64,000 nucleotides of DNA from Stanieria sp. NIES-3757. Lineage in GTDB: Bacteria; Cyanobacteriota; Cyanobacteriia; Cyanobacteriales; Xenococcaceae. The notes beneath the pieces were generated by a model. The model saw only the letters and a list, made by a program, of their open reading frames with translations, made no database searches and was not told the DNA's origin. The position numbers and the translations under genes were made by a program. The DNA is taken from positions 2,170,001 to 2,234,000 of the forward strand of contig AP017375.1 of assembly GCA_002355455.1 (NCBI GenBank). The letters run 5' to 3'. Shown in pieces: positions 54,380 through 55,956 of the stretch (within the stretch, counting starts at the first letter, position 1; the number at the start of each line of letters is the position of its first letter).

Positions 54380-54650
54380 TCAATCATCAACTTCAGCAAA
54401 AGCTCTAGGCGCGATCGCTACAGTCCTTTCTTGACTGGCTTGAGTTGAATCTTGTCATCAAAACCTAAGATTTTTTTAAGAATATTGACCTTTTCATTTT
54501 TCATAAAAGTGTTAGTATAGTTTTTGAGAATAAAGATAAGAGATAGAATTTGTATTCAGTATTGATAGGTTTTTCCCATAGAGTATTGATAAGCTTCTCT
54601 CCTAGATCTTCGCTCTCTACACAACTTATGATTAAGGAGACAATTAATCT

Positions 54651-54941
54651 ATGTCAATTTATGTAGGCAATTTAGACTACGCGGTTACTCAAGCTGACCT
54701 TAGCGATGTTTTTGCCGAGTACGGCAGCGTTAAGCGCGTTCATCTCCCTACCGACCGTGATACAGGGAGAGTAAGAGGCTTCGCCTTTGTAGAAATGGGA
54801 ACAGAGGCAGAAGAAGATAAAGCCATTGATGCTCTTAATGGGGCTGAATGGATGGATCGTGAGTTAAAAGTTAATAAAGCTAAACCTCGCGAAGATCGAA
54901 ATTCGTTTGGTGGTGGTGGTCGCAAAAATTACCGCTTCTAA
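54651..54941 (+). CDS. RNA-binding protein with a single RRM (Rbp family)
   Basis: This 96-residue protein is of the cyanobacterial Rbp family, typically cold-induced. Seen: RNP2 SIYVGNLDYAV at 2-12, RNP1 GRVRGFAFVEMG near 40-51, and a short Gly-rich tail SFGGGGRKNYRF. It binds single-stranded RNA; in Synechocystis Rbp proteins are involved in mRNA localisation and cold response. The 5' leader (about 270 bp to the preceding gene) is long and AT-rich, as in cold-shock genes. A strong hairpin follows, then a small basic ORF. Confidence 0.93.
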   Translation: MSIYVGNLDYAVTQADLSDVFAEYGSVKRVHLPTDRDTGRVRGFAFVEMGTEAEEDKAIDALNGAEWMDRELKVNKAKPREDRNSFGGGGRKNYRF

Positions 54942-54965
54942 GCTTTTAGTTTAAGTTAAATAAAG

Positions 54966-55016
54966 CTTCTGGGAATCAAACGGATTAATTCCACTGGCAC
55001 TTCCCAGAAGTTTTTT
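54966..55016 (+). terminator. Terminator or attenuator between rbp and a small basic ORF
   Basis: CTTCTGGGAA pairs with TTCCCAGAAG (ten pairs) around a 25-base loop and is followed by six T. An alternative short stem is possible: GGAAT (54972-54976) with ATTCC (54988-54992). A 55-codon ORF starts 23 bp downstream. Confidence 0.7.
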
Positions 55017-55038
55017 GTTGTATCAATGAGGAATCATA

Positions 55039-55206
55039 ATGTCTCGACGTCGTAATGCTAAAAAAGAAAAAGCGGAAAGAAACAAAGTTAATGCTCGAAA
55101 GTTCCGCAAAGCATCTTCTTCTAATTACTCGCGAAGGAATAATAGATACTCTAATAGCGAACAAAAATCTTCAGAAAATGAAGAAAACAAATCTTCTTCT
55201 GTCTGA
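55039..55206 (+). CDS. Small basic protein, 55 residues
   Basis: ATG 55039 to TGA 55206. The protein starts SRRRNAKKEKAERNKVNARK and ends in a Ser/Glu/Asn-rich tail (SSENEENKSSSV). GAGGA lies seven bases before the ATG, good support for translation. The basic, helical start suggests nucleic-acid or ribosome association. In several cyanobacteria an rbp gene is followed by rpsU, but this protein lacks the bS21 sequence, so it is a different small protein. It lies after a terminator-like hairpin, so expression could depend on read-through. Confidence 0.7.
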   Translation: MSRRRNAKKEKAERNKVNARKFRKASSSNYSRRNNRYSNSEQKSSENEENKSSSV

Positions 55207-55236: not shown

Positions 55237-55428
55237 GCTTGCTGAATAAGTTATAGCTTTTTATTTATAAGGAGTTTGAGAATTGAGGACGGCAAAAAGT
55301 GCAAGGTTTTTGAATCAATAAAAGGGGTATGCTTGTAAAAAATATTATTAATACTCCAATTTGCACAAAAGCCAATAGCTAAAAGCTTTTTCAGCAATAT
55401 ATCCTCCTCTCTCAGTTTTTCAGCAAGC
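55237..55428. mobile_element. MITE-like element with terminal inverted repeats
   Basis: This segment of about 192 bp begins with GCTTGCTGAATAAG and ends with GTTTTTCAGCAAGC, which gives 14-bp inverted ends (12 matches). Internally, GGCAAAAAGTGCAA is matched by an inverted TTGCACAAAAGCC. It has no coding capacity. Clear target duplications were not found (CTTAGT on the left against CTTACT on the right). Confidence 0.55.
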
Positions 55429-55604: not shown

Positions 55605-55956
55605 ATTTGGCGTTGCTAATTTAAGGTATGAATCGAATATCATCATGCTAAATTTGGCAAGTTCTGATCGACTCTTTACTTTGTTGAAGAGTATTTATGA
55701 AACAACCAAAGTATCTAGCAAGGTTCTGATAAAACTATCGCTGGCAATATCTAGGATGGGTTTTATCACCAAAAAACTTCGACTTGTTTTTGGAAAAGTT
55801 GTTTTAACTTTCAATTTCAAAAGCCAACTCTTTGTTTAACAGTTTAGTTGCTTTAGTTCTTTCGCTTGCCTTCAGGACTATGATTAGCATGAAAAGTTCG
55901 TCCTGTTCAACCACTGTGTTGACAATTCACACTGTTTAAATTTAGCAACGCCAAAT
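55605..55956. mobile_element. Relic of an insertion element with inverted ends
   Basis: This segment of 352 bp starts ATTTGGCGTTGCTAATTTAA and ends with its inverted counterpart TTAAATTTAGCAACGCCAAA plus a T (20-21 bp, one indel). The interior has no intact transposase, so it would be a MITE or an internally deleted insertion sequence. Confidence 0.6.

Follow-up and report, generated by a model that had tools for sequence, protein, structure and literature searches.

The cyanobacterium Stanieria sp. NIES-3757 carries, behind a gene for a single-RRM RNA-binding protein (rbp) and ahead of a gene for a small basic protein, an RNA hairpin that, by sequence comparison, is an unusually well conserved terminator-like element of rbp 3' ends in cyanobacteria. 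The locus lies in a window of 64,000 nt (contig AP017375.1, 2,170,001 to 2,234,000) of the 5.46-Mb host genome, and its features are listed in table 1. The reading that we favor, with moderate confidence, is a single operon of rbp and the small ORF, transcribed from the rbp promoter, in which the hairpin would act as a leaky intrinsic terminator ending most rbp mRNAs.

Table 1. Features of the rbp locus in window coordinates; the genomic copies of the hairpin are given as positions on contig C1.
Feature	Position	Strand	Basis
Probable rbp promoter, extended -10-like motif TGTTAGTAT	54510..54518	+	by-eye conservation
rbp 5' leader, two AGTATTGATA blocks	54525..54650	+	identity and alignment
rbp gene, single-RRM RNA-binding protein, 96 aa	54651..54941	+	Pfam, NCBIfam
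Conserved bipartite hairpin, rbp 3' end	54962..55014	+	fold, covariation, four genomic copies
Inner small hairpin GGA-UUAAU-UCC, in loop	54982..54992	+	fold; support weaker than for outer stem
U-rich tail TTTTTTGTTGT	55011..55021	+	sequence
GAGGA ribosome-binding site of small ORF	55028..55032	+	sequence
Conserved small basic protein gene, 55 aa	55039..55206	+	homologs, pN/pS
Hairpin copies, contig C1	2224961; 90218 (minus strand); 4107781; 2604893		

An earlier note on this DNA had placed an RNA-binding protein gene before the hairpin and a 55-residue basic ORF with a good ribosome-binding site behind it, and both assignments were borne out. The upstream protein matches Pfam RRM_1 (E-value 5.3e-21) and, with 114.3 bits, exceeds the curated cut-off of 100 of the NCBIfam model NF058537 Rbp_regulator; its sequence identifies it as a cyanobacterial Rbp-type protein. 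The 5' leader is strongly conserved among paralogues and family members: the 110 nt before the start codon have a mean pairwise identity of 0.74, against 0.48 after shuffling (20 loci), and the -10-like motif is kept, by eye, in a 19-locus leader alignment that includes loci with a broken or missing RRM. Transcription would start near 54525, and the leader is a candidate counterpart of the cold-regulatory leader of Anabaena rbpA1, which reportedly exists, judging from the title of a paper. Elsewhere in the locus, mean pairwise identity over 20 of the 30 family loci is 0.77 for the RRM gene, 0.67 for the hairpin, 0.62 for the 20 nt that immediately precede the small ORF, and 0.83 and 0.56 for the core and the tail of that ORF, while the flanks (220–330 nt before rbp, and the sequence behind the small ORF) are at shuffle level (0.48 and 0.45–0.48).

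We regard the small ORF as a genuine gene because homologs were found in 26 of the 27 family genomes and because pN/pS is 0.09 over its first 24 codons (378 pairs from 28 loci). These 24 residues also contain all of the 11 invariant and nine nearly invariant columns in an alignment of 21 members; the whole ORF compared with its nearest relative alone (L009) gives a weak signal from few changes (pS 0.09, pN 0.05). A profile search of 386 genomes sampled across the phylum retrieved the small ORF in 174, of which only four carry a label from outside the class. Among the 20 misses listed of 212, 13 belong to the same order, three to the same class and four to other parts of the phylum; as the list is ordered by kinship, the other 192 probably fall outside the class. 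No relative of the 55-aa protein of the window was found in Pfam, NCBIfam or PDB, and the 21 members reached two families with one member each, at E-values of 0.055 and 0.3, which we took as chance. The small ORF represents a widespread cyanobacterial family of small basic proteins that bears no Pfam or NCBIfam name. Of 53 loci, chosen rather than sampled at random, 28 have an RRM domain whose end lies no more than 900 nt before the small ORF; 24 showed no RRM in an upstream search of roughly 800 nt or more, and one yielded no small ORF. Together with the profile counts, these figures indicate that the gene itself is widespread and that its linkage to rbp is confined to part of the order. A tree of 79 RRM domains (81 columns), built to date the linkage but poorly resolved, requires seven changes of linkage, at least four of them forced by supported branches.

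Two further segments were observed downstream in the window. The first (55237–55428), about 190 bp long with 20-nt inverted repeats at its ends, recurs at G000:C1:2059399 (74% copy), with three further matches that are short and partial, and looks like a MITE. The second (55605–55956) is 352 bp long, has 18-nt terminal inverted repeats (94% complementary) and occurs once in the genome; it looks like the relic of an insertion element.

The strong hairpin with a run of six T that had been described behind the RRM gene was confirmed. The 63-nt element folds at -21.7 kcal/mol, against -9.95 +/- 2.59 kcal/mol for 200 dinucleotide shuffles (z -4.54, 0/200 as good), and the T6 is at 55011–55016; a stable stem is followed at once by a U-rich tract, as in intrinsic terminators. 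For the whole 97-nt gap between rbp and the small ORF, z is -2.72, with two of 200 shuffles as good. A simple hairpin scan omits this terminator, its loop being longer than the scan allows, and at Rfam gathering scores only a tRNA is found in the 64-kb window. In an alignment of 52 elements (A3), which leans towards the stem of the model because its rows are covariance-model matches, the 12-pair outer stem is paired in 94.7% of cells, with nine pairs changed on both sides; the 5-pair inner stem is paired in 63.3%, and all five pairs show some both-side changes. Covariation over both stems reaches 0.393, against 0.274 after shuffling (0/500 as high) and 0.119–0.200 with the partners slid, although the shuffle test is inflated by relatedness and the rows were found with an outer-stem model. 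A3 consists of 51 of 65 model matches plus L011; the 14 excluded matches either have neither RRM nor small ORF (L097, L123, L124, L125, L126, L129), are copies or near-copies (L070, L075, L088, L111, L117), are short (L093) or were left out without good reason (L083, L085). In alignment A2, the loci came from small-ORF matches and were trimmed at arm and tail motifs, with no use of pairing; it has 10 pairs, four of them with both-side changes. Its seed is 20 of 30 fetched family loci, after removal of three duplicates and of seven loci without the simple motif or with inserts (L013, L014, L015, L021, L025, L029, L033). At L025 (1297–1500), from an uncultured Pleurocapsa-type genome, an insert of some 100 nt seems to interrupt the hairpin loop between outer arms that are retained.

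The competing stem, GGAAT at 54972–54976 with ATTCC at 54988–54992, by which the earlier note would have had the terminator disrupted, fared differently: the letters are present, but both conservation and energy fail. Over the 52 elements, it is paired in 64.0% of cells, against 65.8% in shuffles (455/500 as high), and its covariation is 0.225, against 0.231 (313/500 as high). Moreover, the best fold containing it has -11.0 kcal/mol, about 10.7 worse than the -21.7 kcal/mol of the terminator fold. With a behavior like that of shuffles and such a cost, this antiterminator was rejected, and want of conservation of the alternative stem is one of the outcomes that the earlier note named as refuting; the conservation of the terminator outer stem stands.

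A first covariance model, built from 20 family hairpins, located the element at four places in the host genome, each directly behind an RRM gene, and the small ORF is present at only two of them (2224961 and 90218). In the order, a second model (17 pairs) matched 52 of 291 genomes (E <= 0.05), including 26 of the 27 family genomes; a phylum-wide draw gave matches in 34 of 373 genomes, many of them short and outside the class. The context of all 87 matches in the order with E <= 1e-3 was analyzed. An RRM lies upstream of 77; the small ORF comes next in 39 of these and is absent from the other 38. Only two matches have the small ORF alone (L078, with a broken RRM, and L087, with the RRM further upstream). 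Eight have neither, three of them with just 138–211 nt of contig upstream and five (L191, L193, L204, L206, L207) with other sequence upstream of the hairpin. At L193 and L207, the hairpin stands behind a gene with an EAL-like end (a label given by eye) and no RRM, perhaps as a relic of a lost rbp copy. Where a small ORF is present (41 matches), it begins 13–24 nt past the element. Because the hairpin is equally present behind rbp copies that lack the small ORF (38/77), we assign it to the 3' end of the rbp gene; its placement between both genes, as earlier described, is correct, but it does not belong to the pair as such.

Four loci in relatives bear on how the small ORF is transcribed; all come from metagenome assemblies, so that L139 could reflect a single sequence error. 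In L139, the RRM start codon is immediately followed by a stop and the remainder is drifting, and in L147 (G007) frameshifts have destroyed the RRM frame; both broken genes lie some 480 nt before the small ORF, neither locus has lost its rbp leader, hairpin or small ORF, and each genome has one small-ORF match (completeness 97 and 90%). In L136 and L137 (G004 and G005), an rbp-type leader is fused directly to the small ORF (1–160 nt upstream of it), and there is neither RRM gene nor hairpin; in both genomes, a further small ORF follows an intact rbp (L140, L142). Taken together, the four loci argue that the small ORF uses the rbp promoter, and that the hairpin can persist without a working RRM gene and would not be indispensable.

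Such rbp-type leaders, kept for the small ORF where the RRM is broken or absent, speak against a promoter of its own inside or behind the hairpin, which would reduce the hairpin to a mere rbp terminator and which we consider unlikely. In the window, no TANNNT motif occurs at 54965–55038, and no + strand promoter-like site is listed in the gap, though the scan in question overlooks the probable rbp promoter as well. On the other side, loci without a linked RRM (24/53) must have a promoter of their own, and hexamers matching TATAAT in at least five of six positions occur inside the element in 12 of 41 cases with the small ORF (5.7 expected) and in 3 of 46 without it (9.0 expected). By eye, these hexamers are mostly the TATGAT of genus g7, and a separate promoter is therefore kept alive as an explanation there.

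Under a single operon with partial termination, transcription would begin near 54525 and cover both the conserved leader and rbp. At the 3' end, the long hairpin with its U-rich tract would serve as an intrinsic terminator, ending most transcripts and leaving a short, abundant rbp mRNA; some polymerases would read through and yield a two-gene mRNA, from which the small protein would be translated from its own ribosome-binding site. The small gene would thus probably be made by leaky read-through, the hairpin setting a ratio of much Rbp to less small protein under common control, and this mechanism would have no need of the competing stem. In Nodularia, rbpA2 and rbpA1 occupy the second and third rows of a table in PMC3610870, that is, are among the most used start sites, and a damped downstream gene is therefore plausible.

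Several findings count against such a terminator. Tails before a small ORF are not clearly weaker than others: neither T-run length (p 0.39) nor U-score (p 0.057) differs significantly between elements with and without it, the latter over 54 distinct elements, with the tail of L121 located wrongly and seven dropped because they were short (L093) or lacked context (L097, L123, L124, L125, L126, L129). The hairpin is absent from L136 and L137, where the small ORF is nevertheless present, and seven of the 30 family loci lack the simple hairpin motif or have inserts. Of 21 linked loci, which come from several families, 13 show gap hairpins with z <= -2.5 (12 shuffles each) and eight are above -2.5, hence without a hairpin clearly better than shuffles; these eight, and the intercistronic hairpins without a U tract in genera g28 and g20, indicate that the hairpin is not universal in the operon. 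The g28 and g20 hairpins (z -3.1 and -3.7, 12 shuffles) would suit a processing or stability element, the long transcript being cut near the hairpin, which protects the rbp mRNA 3' end. We find this very improbable: in the lineages sharing the element the tails stay U-rich, with T at position 4 in 90–91% and at position 7 in 70–83% (the first three T being present by the way tails were located), and termination therefore fits better than processing.

The earlier note read the locus as an attenuator. Its terminator-like structure and its two genuine co-directional genes stand, and read-through is likely; the competing-stem switch is lost. An autogenous or temperature-responsive attenuator might still operate without that stem, with Rbp or cold acting on the inner loop or the U-rich tail, but we judge this quite improbable. 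The inner hairpin is partly conserved, the hairpin is retained in the two loci with a broken RRM, and the tail form T3-6-R-TTGT is found in 26 of 41 elements with a small ORF and in 11 of 46 without (Fisher p 2.4e-4, a value too small because the sequences are related); in addition, a related RRM protein, Rbp3, is reported in the title of a paper to bind mRNA 3' ends. Against these points stand the failure of the competing stem, the occurrence of the same element behind rbp copies without a small ORF (38/77), and a modelled gain in stability of the terminator fold in the cold. Rbp itself might control read-through. We would give little credence to its extension, in which Rbp proteins would sense their own abundance at the shared 3' hairpin and set read-through into a second RNA-binder gene, co-regulating RNA-binders.

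With partial termination at the rbp 3' end as the favored reading, these data define a conserved RNA element at cyanobacterial rbp 3' ends and link RRM regulators to a widespread unnamed small protein. A literature search, with most subscription papers outside its coverage, found no title or abstract start on the hairpin or the gene pair. Intrinsic terminators and attenuators between genes, such as the rpoBC leader, set beside an E. coli attenuator in an excerpt of PMC1242208, have in common with the rbp hairpin a stem, a U-rich tail and likely differential expression of the neighbors. Unlike in these, the sequence and inner loop of the rbp hairpin are conserved across paralogues and families, and its GGAAT/ATTCC alternative fold is not. 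The small protein may be of the Ssr3189/Asl3888 type, a comparison made by length and occurrence only: Ssr3189 is listed as a 55-aa hypothetical protein among cyanobacteria-specific proteins in an excerpt of PMC2823733, and the family member L211 (G101), likewise cyanobacterial, has 55 aa. According to excerpts of PMC12475003, Ssr3189 shifts with RNase and its homolog Asl3888 is RNA-binding in a PNK assay. Were the small protein of this type, two RNA-binders would share a promoter in several lineages, their ratio being built in.

The closest known arrangement is the rbpA-rpsU operon of Anabaena variabilis, where an RRM gene also precedes a small basic protein gene. It is said to be cold-regulated, in work attributed to Sato in 1994 and to Sato et al. 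in 1997. An excerpt of PMC4424878 mentions cold induction of rbpA-rpsU in Anabaena. As in that operon, the RRM gene of the window lies upstream in the same direction; the difference is that the downstream gene does not code for S21, and the idea of a degenerate S21 was rejected, none of the 21 members matching PF01165 at E <= 1. The host has rpsU genes elsewhere, and one of these (S21) comes after another RRM gene as a classical rbp-rpsU pair, on the minus strand at G000:C1:223222–223989 (L005, L236). Should the small protein prove to be of the Ssr3189/Asl3888 type, its pairing with rbp would parallel rbpA-rpsU and give direct access to the question of its function.
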